A stretch of 64,000 bases of DNA from contig NZ_CP097562.1 of NCBI RefSeq assembly GCF_000487995.2, positions 1,919,001-1,983,000 on the forward strand, written 5' to 3'. The notes beneath the pieces were generated by a model, which was not told the origin of the DNA, did not search any database, and saw only the letters and a list, made by a program, of their open reading frames with translations. The position numbers were made by a program, and so were the translations under genes. Every line of letters begins with the position of its first letter. Positions within the stretch are counted from its first letter, which is position 1. Shown one piece after another: positions 12,939-64,000 of this stretch. The stretch is from Mucispirillum schaedleri ASF457. GTDB lineage: Bacteria > Chrysiogenota > Deferribacteres > Deferribacterales > Mucispirillaceae.

Positions 12939-13799
12939 ATGTCTAGTGCATTTGCATTGATTGTGATAAGTGCAGTATTCCATGCAGCATGGAATTTATT
13001 AGTTAAGACATCAGCTGATAAAGTGGCTTATAATGTCCATATACAAGTAGCAACAGCTGTATTTATCACAAGTTATACAGTATTGTTTTTCCCAGAAGCT
13101 TTTTATTTTCATAAACCTACTTTTATATATGCACTGCTTTCATCATTCTTTTTTGCCCTTTATCAGCATTTTACAGCAATAAGCTATAAATATGCAGATG
13201 TATCATTAGTTTATCCAATCACTACTTCATCGCCTTTTTTTATTATGATTTGGGCATATTTTATTTTAGATGAGCATGTTACTCCATTTGGTATTCTTGG
13301 TATTGTGTTAGTGCTTGCTGGCTGTTATATAATGAATATAACAAAAGGCAAAGGCAATAAATCAGGTTTATATGGCATATTGACTGCTCTTCTTGCTGCT
13401 TTTTTATACTCGTTTGGTGCAATGGCAGATAAAATGGGGGTAGAATCAGTTAATACCCATCTATATATTATGCTTATGGCAGATTTTATGTCATTTTATT
13501 CTGTCCTATTTACAATAATAAGCCATCGTAAATCAGTAACACTTCATAGAAAAGTCAGTGTCCCTGTTCAGTGGAAATTAGTTATTCTTGGGGGGCTTGC
13601 AATGTCTGCATCTACTATTACATACAGATTAGGGCTTATTGACATGCAGATTTCGTATTCATCAGCTTTAAGACAGTTAAGCTCATTATTTGGTGTGCTA
13701 ATGGGATTGTTTTTTTTGAAAGAATCTTACGGCTTGCAAAGAATAGTAGGAAGTATGGTAATTGTGGCAGGAATAATGCTTATTCGTTTAAATATGTAG
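12939..13799 (+). CDS. EamA/DMT-superfamily transporter
   Basis: 286 aa with about ten transmembrane helices in two EamA repeats. Each repeat ends with the usual charged turn after a conserved helix: FALYQHFTAISYKYADVSLVYPITTSSPFF in the first half and SALRQLSSLFGVLMGLFFLKE in the second. Drug/metabolite-type exporter of unknown substrate. AAGGTG lies about 8 nt before ATG 12939. It is separated by 58 nt from the small desulfurase-linked gene; co-transcription is possible. Confidence 0.85.
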   Translation: MSSAFALIVISAVFHAAWNLLVKTSADKVAYNVHIQVATAVFITSYTVLFFPEAFYFHKPTFIYALLSSFFFALYQHFTAISYKYADVSLVYPITTSSPFFIMIWAYFILDEHVTPFGILGIVLVLAGCYIMNITKGKGNKSGLYGILTALLAAFLYSFGAMADKMGVESVNTHLYIMLMADFMSFYSVLFTIISHRKSVTLHRKVSVPVQWKLVILGGLAMSASTITYRLGLIDMQISYSSALRQLSSLFGVLMGLFFLKESYGLQRIVGSMVIVAGIMLIRLNM

Positions 13800-14107
13800 T
13801 ATACGGAGTATTATTTTTCATTACTACTTCGTTGTTTAAAAAAACAGCTCAGTCATTTACTATTATGCAAACTCCTGTCATAAAATTTTCTATTCGCCTT
13901 GTCTAACTTAAAAATCTTAAAACCTTGCTGTAATCATAACTTTCGCTGTTTTTATTTATATTTCATTTTATCACATAAATTTTTCATTTTGCTCAGAAAT
14001 GAAAATAGATACTTTTTTGTAAAAAACTTAAATTAATTTTTATAAATTATTTTTCGCAGTGATGTTTCTGATAGATTATATTTTTTGCGAAGCTGGAATA
14101 AACTGAC
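13800..14107. other. Gene-free AT-rich stretch
   Basis: No gene, hairpin with a T-run or RNA signature seen. It leads into the repeat block that carries the poly-C promoter. Confidence 0.6.
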
Positions 14108-14235
14108 CCATTTTTAAAAAATGGTAGCATATATAAAAACATGTATGTCTGATAAAAGCAAAAAAGTCCGTAAAGTCCAAAAAAATATGATTTTTTATAA
14201 ATTGTAAAATAATACTTGACAAATCCCCCCCCCCC
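14108..14235 (+). repeat. Copy 2 of 128-bp poly-C promoter block
   Basis: Same block as 2076-2203. It has a near-palindrome at 14108-14124, AAAGTCC heptamers at 14163-14169 and 14172-14178, TTGACA at 14216-14221 and a run of eleven Cs at 14225-14235. The paired heptamers sit about 40-55 bp upstream of the -35, a plausible activator site. Confidence 0.85.
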
Positions 14236-14244
14236 GAATATAAT
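14216..14244 (+). promoter_or_regulatory. Poly-C spacer promoter, probably phase-variable (17-bp spacer)
   Basis: Perfect -35 TTGACA (14216-14221) and perfect -10 TATAAT (14239-14244) with exactly 17 bp between; 11 of these are an uninterrupted C run (14225-14235). Gain or loss of Cs by slipped-strand mispairing would move spacing away from 17 and change transcription. The next gene's AGGAGG and ATG are about 20 and 31 nt downstream of the -10. Confidence 0.85.
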
Positions 14245-14275
14245 GCCCCTATCTTTTTTTGTATAGGAGGATTTT

Positions 14276-15085
14276 ATGAAAAAGTCTTTATTACTTATTT
14301 TAGCAAGTCTTTTTGCTGTTTTTTCACTTACTGCTTGTGCAGATGAAGACAAAAACGATACAGCGGGGGAAGTAAACGGTGGAACACCAGTAGTAAACCC
14401 AGCAAGTGAATATGTGGGAACTTACGATGTTACATTTTTTGCAACAAAACCTTATGATTCAAATAATCATGCAATGGATATGTTAGTAACTACAGGCAAT
14501 ATGTCAACAGATTGCACAATGGCAGATACCTTAGGTATTTTGAAAAAGGTAGATGGTCAAGCAAATGTTCAAGATGGTGAATGTGCCGCAGATGGTTCAA
14601 ATGATGCTAAAATAATTGGTAAACAGGCAGTAATTAATTATAATGACGATGGTCTTGTTTTAGAAACAAAACTTCAAATGTGGAGTAGTGTTTTTTCATT
14701 TTCTCAAGATGATGTTTATCAATACACTAAATATACAGCTGTTCCATCTTCATCTGTTACATCTAATGCAATTAATAATGTTGCTAATCCTGTATTAGGG
14801 GTAAGCGGCAGAAATTTAACCACAAAAACATTAAATCCTAAATCTACTTTTAAAATAACTAAAAGAGATGATGGCACATTATATGTTGAATTAGAATTAA
14901 TGGAGAAATCTGTATTAAACGGTCAATTAAAAGCTAATGCTCCTACTTATGTTATTTTAAAGAAAAAATTAGATAAACCTGAACCTGTTGACCCTAATAC
15001 TCTTTTTACAACTACTTCAGGTAATGATACAGCTGATGGCATTTATGCAAAATTTAAACCAACACCAGATGAAGCAGCACAGTAA
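14276..15085 (+). CDS. Surface or periplasmic lipoprotein under poly-C promoter
   Basis: 269 aa. Signal peptide MKKSLLLILASLFAVFSLTA followed by the lipobox cysteine C21 (LTAC), so a lipid-anchored protein. The mature chain begins acidic (ADEDKNDTAGE) and is rich in T, N, D and beta-prone segments: YVGTYDVTFFATKPYDSNNH, MSTDCTMADTL, GTLYVELELM. It ends with an Asp/Thr-rich tail. Two further cysteines near residues 82 and 103 could form a disulfide. Family not recognised. AGGAGG 14265-14270 is optimally spaced. The poly-C promoter implies switchable expression of a surface antigen (inference). An IS3-family element begins 8 bp after the stop. Confidence 0.8.
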   Translation: MKKSLLLILASLFAVFSLTACADEDKNDTAGEVNGGTPVVNPASEYVGTYDVTFFATKPYDSNNHAMDMLVTTGNMSTDCTMADTLGILKKVDGQANVQDGECAADGSNDAKIIGKQAVINYNDDGLVLETKLQMWSSVFSFSQDDVYQYTKYTAVPSSSVTSNAINNVANPVLGVSGRNLTTKTLNPKSTFKITKRDDGTLYVELELMEKSVLNGQLKANAPTYVILKKKLDKPEPVDPNTLFTTTSGNDTADGIYAKFKPTPDEAAQ

Positions 15086-15225
15086 TTGCATATGAACTTA
15101 CCCAAAAATTTTGAACTAAGCCACTAAATAAATTTCTTTTTCCTGTAAAGGTGTAAGTCCATTAGCTTTTATTCTGTAATTATTATAGAAATCAATATAT
15201 TTTTCAAGTTCATATTTAAACTGTT

Positions 15226-15250
15226 CTATATTTTTGAATTTGTTAATATA
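15226..15250 (+). repeat. Left copy of 25-bp direct repeat flanking nested IS
   Basis: Identical to 16347-16371. It encodes YINKFKNI of orfB on the minus strand. Interpreted as the target-site duplication of the nested insertion. Confidence 0.9.
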
Positions 15251-16346
15251 ATGTAAGAGTATAAGACATATGTTACAAAAATAAGTATAACAAAATACCT
15301 CTTAGTATATAGTATAAAATTAAGCAAAAAACTAAACTAAACTAAGAGGTATAACAATGAATAAAGTGATAATAACAGAAGAAATGCGATTTCGTCAACG
15401 GTTATGTGAGTATGCATTAAAAAAAGGAGCAACGAAAGCAGCCCGCAAATATCAAGTGAACCGTATGTTTGTATACAGGCATTTAAAGAAATATGATGGA
15501 ACAGTTCAGAGTTTATCTTTTAAAAGTCGTAGACCAAGAACCAGTCCAAATAAGCATAGTAAAGAAGAGCTTGATTTAATATTTAACACATATGCCGAGC
15601 ATGGTTTGTATGGTAATGCGGAGGTATATGTCAGACTTCTAGAAATTGGTTATAATCGTAGTTTTGGCAGTATGTGTATGCAGATAAGGAAGAAAGGCTT
15701 AAAGTCATTAAACAAGTCAAAAAAGAGCTATACAAGATATGAACCAATAACAGGTCAGTATATAGGCGACAAGGTTCAGATAGATATAAAATATGTTCCA
15801 CAGGAATGTATAATGTTTTCCAGCTATGGTAAAAAATATTATCAGATAACAGCGATAGATGAATACAGCAGAATGAGAATATTAGAAATAGTAGAAGAAA
15901 AAAGCACATTTGAAACAGGTAAGTTTTTAGACGAACTGGAAAGTAAATTTGGCTTTCCACTAAAAACAATTCAAGTGGATAATGGCTATGAGTTTGTAAA
16001 TGATAAGGAAGTTACAAACAAGAAAAGCTATTTTGAAGAGACAGCTGAAAAGAAAGGATATACTATTAAACGAATAAGACCTTATTCACCTTGGCAGAAT
16101 GGAAAGGTGGAAAGAAGTCATAGAGAGGATGGAAAAATTTTATATGCAAATAATAAATTCTATTCCAAAGATGAATTAATTAAGGCTCTTAAACAGCATG
16201 AAGATAGATATAATAATACTGCTAAAACATGCTTAAATTTTAAATCTCCATATGAGATTGTTATTGAAAATAAATTATTGCTTGATTTATATTAAATTAA
16301 GATTTATTTTTTATTAAAAATGTAACATATGTCCTGTTAGTTAAGA
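15251..16346 (+). mobile_element. IS481-like element nested inside the IS3-family orfB
   Basis: About 1.1 kb between two perfect 25-bp direct repeats of orfB (15226-15250, 16347-16371). Near each end lies the inverted core GACATATGTTACA (15264-15276 and the complement at 16320-16332). The outermost 12-13 bp of the ends match poorly, so the exact borders are uncertain by a base or two. Confidence 0.85.
15357..16295 (+). CDS. DDE transposase, IS481-like
   Basis: 312 aa. An N-terminal helix-turn-helix (EMRFRQRLCEYALKKGATKAARKYQVNRMFVYRHLKKY) is followed by an rve-type integrase core. Catalytic residues: the first D in VQIDIKYV, the second D in IQVDNGYEF, and the E in KVERSHRED. The motif RIRPYSPWQNGKVERSHRED is typical of IS481. 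AGAGG about 9 nt before ATG 15357. It appears intact, so the nested element may still be active. Confidence 0.88.
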   Translation: MNKVIITEEMRFRQRLCEYALKKGATKAARKYQVNRMFVYRHLKKYDGTVQSLSFKSRRPRTSPNKHSKEELDLIFNTYAEHGLYGNAEVYVRLLEIGYNRSFGSMCMQIRKKGLKSLNKSKKSYTRYEPITGQYIGDKVQIDIKYVPQECIMFSSYGKKYYQITAIDEYSRMRILEIVEEKSTFETGKFLDELESKFGFPLKTIQVDNGYEFVNDKEVTNKKSYFEETAEKKGYTIKRIRPYSPWQNGKVERSHREDGKILYANNKFYSKDELIKALKQHEDRYNNTAKTCLNFKSPYEIVIENKLLLDLY

Positions 16347-16371
16347 CTATATTTTTGAATTTGTTAATATA
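16347..16371 (+). repeat. Right copy of 25-bp direct repeat flanking nested IS
   Basis: Identical to 15226-15250. orfB coding changes to nonsense (VLTNRTYV..) immediately after it, which proves the point of insertion. Confidence 0.9.
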
Positions 16372-17063
16372 AACCAATTCACATTTTAAAGTAGCAAAGA
16401 AACTTTCCATAACAGCATTATCATAGCAGTTGCCACGCCTTGACATACTCTGCTCTATATTATTTTCCTTTAATAACTTTCTAAATTGATTAGCCTGATA
16501 TAATATACCCTGGTCTGAATGTATCATTAACCCTGTTGTATCTTTTGTTTTATCTATTGCCTGTTTTAAATTATCTATTACCATTTCTTCATTATTATAT
16601 TTGCTTACACTGTATGCTGTTATTTCTCTGTTATACAAATCCATTATTGCTGATAAATACACCTTTTCATTATTAATTTTTATCTCTGCCACATCTGTTA
16701 CCCATTTTAAACATGGTTTCTCACTTGTAAAGGCTCTGTTTAATTTATTGCTGCATATATGACTTACTCTGCCTTGTTTATACCTTTTCTTAACCCTGAT
16801 TATTGATGAAATATTTAATTCCTTCATTAATTTTGCTACTGTCTTCCTGTCATAAGTATAACCCAGTTTCTCTAATGCCTTTGTTATTCTTGGATAGCCG
16901 TAAGTCTTGTTAGATTTTTCATATATTTCTAATATATATGCCTTGACTTCTGCATATTTATCTAATGCAGCAGGCTTTTTAACATTATAATAGTAAGTGC
17001 TTCTTTTCATATTACTCACAGACAACAGGATATCCAAACTGTAATACAGCCTTAATGCAGTTA

Positions 17064-17627
17064 TTATTTGTGCTTTTTCTGTTGAACTCTCTGTTCCTTT
17101 GACTGCATTAAGGCTTCCAGCTTTTTTAAATATGCATTCTCCGCTGACTTGTAATAAAGCTCTTTTTCAAGCTCTGATATTCTCTCTTTTAATTGTCTTA
17201 CTTCTTCACTATCATCTGATTTAGTGAGTTTAATATCAGTAGAGTTTGAGTGTTTACTCTTTTTACTGTTCGGGATATTCTTATCTGACATATTATCTCC
17301 AATAAACTTACTGCAAAACTTATTCCAGTCATATATTACTGATGCTGATGGTATATTAAAATATAGTGCTGTCTGCTCATAACTTAAATTATTTGATGCC
17401 TTATAAGTTAACACATTTAATTTAAAATCTCTACTATATTCATTGCGGGTAAAGCTATGATGTAAACTTGATTCGCCTGAATGCTTATATCTGTTATAGA
17501 TATTACATATTACTCCTTTATGAATTTTACAGCATCTTGATAATTCACTGGCACTCATTATTCCATTTTCTATGACTGTTACTAGATATTTCTTAAACTC
17601 ATAGCTGTATTTTCTTGCCATATACAC
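17064..17627 (-). CDS. IS3-family OrfA (HTH) protein
   Basis: 187 aa. Two helix-turn-helix units (EFKKYLVTVIENGIMSASELSRCCKI; DFKLNVLTYKASNNLSYEQTALYFNI), then a leucine-zipper-like coiled coil (EEVRQLKERISELEKELYYK) at the end, as usual for IS3 OrfA. The frame overlaps orfB's open frame in the -1 register, with slippery GAAAAAG just before the stop, so OrfA and OrfAB are both expected. OrfA is complete although its partner is broken. Confidence 0.88.
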   Translation of the reverse strand: MYMARKYSYEFKKYLVTVIENGIMSASELSRCCKIHKGVICNIYNRYKHSGESSLHHSFTRNEYSRDFKLNVLTYKASNNLSYEQTALYFNIPSASVIYDWNKFCSKFIGDNMSDKNIPNSKKSKHSNSTDIKLTKSDDSEEVRQLKERISELEKELYYKSAENAYLKKLEALMQSKEQRVQQKKHK

Positions 17628-17776
17628 TCCTTATATGGCTAGTACAACTTTTTCGGGTAAGTTCAGTATCTTAAAAACATACAAATCTCTTTAACCTATA
17701 ACAGGTTCAACAGTGATACATATACAACCTATATTAAGTTAACATACTTTTAAAAAATATGTATTTTATAAATAAA

Positions 17777-63865: not shown

Positions 63866-63892
63866 TTGACAAAATCCCCCCCCCGTTATAAT
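63866..63892 (+). promoter_or_regulatory. Poly-C spacer promoter (15-bp spacer)
   Basis: TTGACA (63866-63871), then AAAT, nine Cs (63876-63884), and TATAAT (63887-63892). Spacing 15 bp, 2 bp shorter than the copy before the 14276 gene, so probably weak or off in this sequenced state. The sequence upstream is unrelated to the 128-bp block, so the motif recurs on its own. Confidence 0.8.
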
Positions 63893-63921: not shown

Positions 63922-64000
63922 ATGAAAAAAAATTTATTACTTATTTTTGTATTGTCTTTAATGACAATATTATTTGCTGGCTGTGCTGATGATAAAGGGG
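63922..64000 (+). CDS. Lipoprotein, N-terminal fragment (runs off window)
   Basis: ATG 63922; MKKNLLLIFVLSLMTILFAGC with lipobox cysteine C21 (FAGC), then ADDKG. Open to the window end. No strong Shine-Dalgarno. Same design as the lipoprotein at 14276: poly-C promoter, Lys-rich signal, A-D-D/E after the cysteine. Rest unknown. Confidence 0.8.
   Translation, partial: MKKNLLLIFVLSLMTILFAGCADDKG

Follow-up and report, generated by a model that had tools for sequence, protein, structure and literature searches.

The 64-kb stretch of DNA analysed here (the window, 64,000 nucleotides of the Mucispirillum schaedleri ASF457 genome) includes a promoter at positions 14216-14244 in which eleven consecutive C residues separate two perfect consensus hexamers in front of a lipoprotein gene, raising the question of whether transcription of this gene is subject to phase variation through changes in the length of the tract, as the original prediction had proposed. 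The elements of the locus are the following:

14216-14221, + strand: -35 hexamer TTGACA, perfect (consensus scan)
14225-14235, + strand: C11 tract within a 17-nt spacer (AAT-C11-GAA), i.e. the genus mode of C9 plus two C
14239-14244, + strand: -10 hexamer TATAAT, perfect (consensus scan)
14265-14270, + strand: Shine-Dalgarno sequence AGGAGG (from the sequence)
14276-15085, + strand: lipoprotein gene, 269 aa, MKKSLLLILASLFAVFSLTAC lipobox, ATG at 14276

The architecture described in the original prediction is exact at the sequence level, as the spacer (14222-14238, AATCCCCCCCCCCCGAA) is 17 nt long and contains 11 C between perfect hexamers. This promoter is the sole 12/12 match to the consensus in the region 13700-15400, and only about 0.07 perfect TTGACA-N17-TATAAT arrangements are expected by chance in 64 kb, both strands considered, from base composition. 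The ORF starting at 14276 is intact and its product carries a lipoprotein signal peptide. A beta-rich fold was predicted for this protein (mean pLDDT 75), with no Pfam domain above the cut-off and no PDB fold at E <= 0.001, the only similarities being weak matches to calycin-like beta-barrels; because no significant Pfam or PDB-fold match was found, we do not claim a specific function for it. A single-protein query of named genomes returned no confirmed relative of the lipoprotein, and the search across the genus identified paralogues in ASF457 itself as well as homologues in nine Mucispirillum genomes. Directly 3' of the gene lie nested insertion sequences (15090-17630), in which an rve-domain transposase (15357-16295) appears to have been inserted into another insertion sequence on the minus strand.

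The plus strand of the window has just three C-runs of at least six residues, C10 at 2193, C11 at 14225 and C9 at 63876, and all three are directly preceded by TTGACAAAT or TTGACAAAAT, that is, TTGACAAA(A)T. The two sites besides that at 14216, which had escaped the original prediction, are:

63866-63892, + strand: second intact promoter, TTGACA-AAAT-C9-GT-TATAAT, 15-bp spacer
2184-2202, + strand: orphan TTGACAAAT-C10 with no -10 after the tract; the next gene on the same strand is uvrB

The promoter at 63866 is followed by another lipoprotein gene (MKKNLLLIFVLSLMTILFAGC, start at 63922). The segment 2076-2202 duplicates, at 98% identity over 127 bp, the sequence that leads up to and into the 14216 promoter (14108-14235), and this duplication ends inside the poly-C tract, leaving a TTGACA-C10 near uvrB devoid of a -10 hexamer.

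The genome of the strain consists of one contig of 2,347,083 bases with 32% GC, and on both of its strands we found 43 C-runs of at least nine residues (33 C9, 8 C10 and 2 C11) against 0.27 expected from composition, which bears out the earlier view that such a tract is unlikely to arise by chance. Run length has its mode at nine, with fewer runs of C7 and of C8 than of C9, so the long runs do not simply tail off as random ones would. TTGACA lies 1-4 nt before 8 of the 43 runs, where 0.06 cases are expected (binomial P ~2e-15), and two more TTGACA sites have shorter tracts, C7 and C8. As the site at 2184 lacks a -10, the promoters with both a tract and a recognisable -10 in this genome number nine. 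The promoter at 14216, presented originally as a lone case, is thus one of at least nine of its kind, and the tracts exceed what composition predicts both in length and in frequency.

Three simple origins for these tracts were considered and rejected. Chance is ruled out by the composition expectations and by the reversed-pattern controls. Loss of mismatch repair as their driver is made less likely by the presence of MutS in the window genome, as a result of which mononucleotide slippage is probably partly repaired. A phage or plasmid origin of the design finds little backing, since the pattern turned up in no more than 5 viral contigs.

Ten genomes of the genus were searched with the pattern TTGACN{2,6}C7, with the reversed pattern as control. 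Matches were obtained in 9 of the 10 Mucispirillum genomes, and the control gave none in all but one genome. A TATAAT-like -10 follows at 58 of the 67 sites, so that the design TTGACA-N(2-4)-C(7-11)-N(2-4)-TATAAT occurs 58 times in nine of the ten genomes. Tract lengths at these sites are C7 (2), C8 (6), C9 (43), C10 (6) and C11 (1), and their spacers measure 14 bp (7 sites), 15 bp (39), 16 bp (6) and 17 bp (1), with five more at 11, 12 or 19 bp. The spacer bases outside the tract add up to 6 nt in 45 of the 58 sites, split as 2+4, 3+3 or 4+2; because these six bases are kept wherever the tract begins relative to the -35, it is the total -35/-10 distance that is conserved. The non-C bases of the 14216 promoter number six as usual (AAT + GAA), and with two C more than the mode it is the only C11/17-bp site among the 58. 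At 14216 and at the 58 genus sites alike the poly-C tract is placed between the -35 and -10 hexamers, as in the promoter-spacer SSR type. A search of 51 genomes of the phylum found the pattern outside Mucispirillum only in G048, a member of another genus of the same family with five sites, several of them with a -10-like hexamer followed by signal-peptide ORFs, and once in G039.

The genes behind these promoters are mostly of one class. A lipobox was identified in 34 of the 52 downstream ORFs scored versus 2 of 40 ORFs taken from the window as controls (P ~1e-9), and in 22 of 32 downstream ORFs after collapsing to distinct N-termini. This excess indicates that the tract promoters target mainly envelope lipoproteins, which may be exposed on the cell surface.

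So uniform a family could instead be explained if the poly-C were an element of fixed length, either the site of a regulator or a deliberately weak, G/C-rich spacer of 15 bp, defining a co-regulated lipoprotein regulon in which no switching occurs. The strong mode, with C9 and a 15-bp spacer exactly in 37 of the 58 sites, and the stereotyped flanks (T/A-T before the tract, A/G-TGA after it) would fit such an element, but the variable offset of the tract at constant total spacing argues against it. So does the existence of lengths from 7 to 11, with C7, C8, C10 and C11 represented at the promoters of homologous lipoproteins within the ASF457 genome itself. We regard this explanation as unlikely, and further evidence on it comes from promoter spacing, from the tracts in coding sequences and from other phyla.

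The spacing that works in the genus was assessed from tract-free perfect TTGACA/TATAAT pairs among those listed for five genomes. In this set, distances of 15, 16 and 17 bp were enriched 2.8-, 3.8- and 2.7-fold over other distances, with no enrichment at 14 or 18 bp in the same five genomes. The reversed-pattern control was equally numerous overall, so many of the tract-free pairs are chance occurrences and the informative part is the peak. Tract-free homologues of the 14276 lipoprotein have a spacer of exactly 16 bp in five species, and in a sixth species one of 16 bp with a weaker -10; this retention of 16 bp by related genes lacking a tract is not what a fixed poly-C element would lead one to expect. 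The tract-bearing homologues show C11/17, C10/16, C9/15, C8/14 and C7/14 combinations of tract and spacer. Tract lengths therefore straddle the functional spacing, as tract spacers are mostly of 14-17 bp and tract-free ones are enriched at 15-17 bp only, and a one-base slip would be expected to carry a promoter across the limits of the usable spacings. Judging from the sequences, promoter strength plausibly follows the order 14 bp weak or off, 15 bp usable, 16 bp best, 17 bp usable and 18 bp off. A fixed ideal of 17 bp as a general rule was discarded, since most of the family stands at 15 bp and the tract-free peak is at 16 bp.

Differences in tract length were found between homologous promoters. 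L092 or L112 and L133 differ as C8 and C9 with 95-96% identity in the flanks, L131 and the window promoter as C10 and C11 with 86% flank identity, and L114 and L091 have C7 and C9 before related lipoprotein genes. Some of the pairs that differ in length also differ elsewhere in the spacer, and in most homologous promoter pairs tract length is equal, most of them sharing the C9 that a fixed element would require. With C9 at 43 of 58 sites and mostly equal pairs, the family appears more stable than a very fast switch would be. The C9 mode alone does not exclude slippage, because a nine-residue mode is shared by the coding tracts described below and by Treponema pallidum tprL, whose tract has been proven to vary from 7 to 11 G, mostly 9 (PMC7864442). 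A published study that set metagenomes taken after 22 years against the ASF457 genome reports few signs of extensive indels, on data not shown (PMC9600240); single-base homopolymer changes may have been left unscored in it.

Tracts within coding sequences were found in a family of lipoproteins with a Tat signal (SRRSFLKG..GCSKDG), in which a G9 tract lies just after the lipobox:

L001, L011, L013 and L042, ASF457 genome: Tat-signal lipoprotein loci with G-tract
L306 and L308, genome G009: Tat-signal lipoprotein loci with G-tract

In three of the four ASF457 paralogues the frame is lost only because of the G9 tract: a G7 or G10 tract would leave each open for at least 500 codons. The fourth is in frame. 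The presence of an intact ORF in another frame beyond the tract is a mark of coding contingency, here in the Tat-signal lipoproteins and not at the 14216 site, and frames preserved behind such a frameshift are hard to explain unless the tract often returns to frame. When checked across species, the Tat-lipoprotein tract was an identical G9 in one other species, with no length difference. C9 is also the mode of the tracts inside ORFs, where it can have no promoter role, which again speaks against a length fixed by promoter function.

Other ORFs of the ASF457 genome also carry tracts. L025, L027, L016, L031, L041 and others have G9 or C9 tracts, most of them now in frame, and their N-termini are those of glycosyltransferase-like, membrane and secreted proteins. 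At L038 (~2.079 Mb), a glycosyltransferase-like N-terminus has a G11 tract soon after which the present frame closes, with another frame open for ~205 codons. The tract repertoire of the genome thus exceeds the promoter set. At L008 (~863.2 kb), the signal peptide of a paralogous lipoprotein, whose promoter is of the C10/16-bp kind, is interrupted by a frameshift at about codon 6, which could point to a pseudogene, to a sequencing error or to a further slip site.

Beyond the phylum, the TTGACA-polyC pattern was present in many contigs labelled as uncultured Clostridia, and 14 genomes were reached via selected matching loci. In several gut Clostridia genomes of ~1 Mb, ~4-12 distinct sites were counted per genome and the reversed controls were empty; several sites were also found in Histophilus somni. 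As these genomes were chosen for matching, no prevalence is claimed for the Clostridia. Promoters in Clostridia MAGs (L139, L143, L175, L180, L183, L185, L199 and others, from G051-G061) often have 15-17 bp spacers. Genes downstream are more mixed in the Clostridia than in Mucispirillum. This distribution suggests that the design arose repeatedly, and the same design with other spacings in unrelated gut bacteria is a further argument against a fixed-length element.

It might also be that the tracts are prone to slippage without being adaptive, poly-C being tolerated in spacers and carried along as promoter-lipoprotein units are duplicated, in which case their variation would be noise. That such units do spread is evident from tandem duplicates in G005 that have identical promoters (L104 and L105) and from the 127-bp copy at 2076; we nevertheless hold this to be very improbable, given the 32 different N-termini downstream, mostly of lipoproteins, the lack of tracts in nearly all other Deferribacterota and their apparently independent occurrence in Clostridia MAGs. 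Homopolymers are error-prone, but a wrong run or run length from sequencing or assembly is scarcely credible when nine separately assembled genomes and contigs of several studies share the architecture, the run is flanked by -35 and -10 in most cases, and 33 of 43 runs are identical in length.

We therefore favour, with good confidence, the reading of 14216-14244 as a phase-variable sigma-70-type promoter of the porA/tp0126 type, organised genus-wide, and Mucispirillum probably switches its surface proteins at random, as some pathogens do. The slippage proposed originally is supported in part, by the repetition of the design across the genus, the lipoprotein targets, tract lengths from 7 to 11 beside a non-tract portion kept near 6 nt, the tract-free homologues at 16 bp and the coding contingency loci; what requires amendment is the place of 17 bp, which is not necessarily the peak, tract-free promoters being most enriched at 16 bp with 15-17 bp tolerated. 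Slipped-strand mispairing during replication would add or remove C in the hypermutable tract of the spacer and shift the -35/-10 distance in 1-bp steps (C8 = 14, C9 = 15, C10 = 16, C11 = 17, C12 = 18). If only 15-17 bp works well in the genus, each slip would raise, lower or abolish transcription of the 14276 gene, and we infer that slippage takes place within populations and yields graded transcription. The repertoire of at least nine promoters in the genome and ~58 in the genus would put mainly surface lipoproteins under independent random control, and the second set of C or G tracts, inside ORFs, would switch other genes by frameshift. The benefit may lie in escape from host immunity or phages, or in coping with changing mucus conditions.

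The mechanism itself is already known elsewhere. In porA and fetA of Neisseria meningitidis, a poly-G or poly-C tract between -10 and -35 sets by its length the spacing and the transcription of genes for outer-membrane proteins, and the 14216 promoter, of sigma-70 type as well, resembles them in having a homopolymer as part of its spacer. In Neisseria, control of this kind affects one or a few genes per genome. Mucispirillum, known here from sequence, differs in being a gut commensal from a separate phylum and in having at least nine promoters of stereotyped design in one genome, placed before lipoproteins. In T. pallidum tp0126, a poly-G lies between -35 and -10 with an optimum of 17 bp (PMC7864442). 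The likeness to tp0126 and tprL comprises the tract in the spacer (tp0126), an optimum near the consensus distance, a surface protein as product and the modal length of nine (tprL), whereas the tract is of C here and of G on the coding strand there, the tprL tract overlaps the -10, and the optimum is seemingly 16 bp in Mucispirillum versus 17 bp in tp0126. The poly-C tract of N. meningitidis opc, grouped with spacer tracts by one source (PMC2791445), encompasses the -35 and acts via a regulator (PMC7864442). Like the case described here, it is a poly-C in a promoter, that of a surface protein with graded expression; unlike it, the TTGACA at 14216 is perfect and stands outside the tract, three bases upstream. 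Finally, Mucispirillum ORFs with G or C tracts, some of them out of frame only there, resemble coding contingency loci of the Helicobacter/Campylobacter type, from which the 14216 case differs in being transcriptional and not translational.

What is unusual here is the number of promoters, their stereotyped design and the host range. A literature search, mostly of sources other than subscription journals, found no spacer-tract phase variation described for Mucispirillum or Deferribacterota, in agreement with the original statement that no such promoter was known from this kind of organism. A wider proposal, to which we give an even chance of being right, is that in Mucispirillum and independently in ~1-Mb gut Clostridia a stereotyped TTGACA/poly-C/TATAAT cassette forms a multi-gene switchboard of random transcriptional control that has arisen more than once. 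As part of this joint proposal, the promoters would rest near C9 at the edge of functional spacing, one more C would give the best spacing, and the targets in Mucispirillum would be mostly surface lipoproteins.

A commensal genus of the mouse gut has, per genome, ~10 promoters with a spacer tract besides some 30 other tracts, and gut Clostridia have a similar number of promoters. The Mucispirillum strain of the ASF consortium, with its decades of gnotobiotic passage, is ready material for their study. If phase variation is at work, results on bulk expression, serology and phage sensitivity in Mucispirillum would hinge on hidden tract states, and if the wider proposal is true, it would amount to a promoter-based phasome in non-pathogenic gut bacteria.
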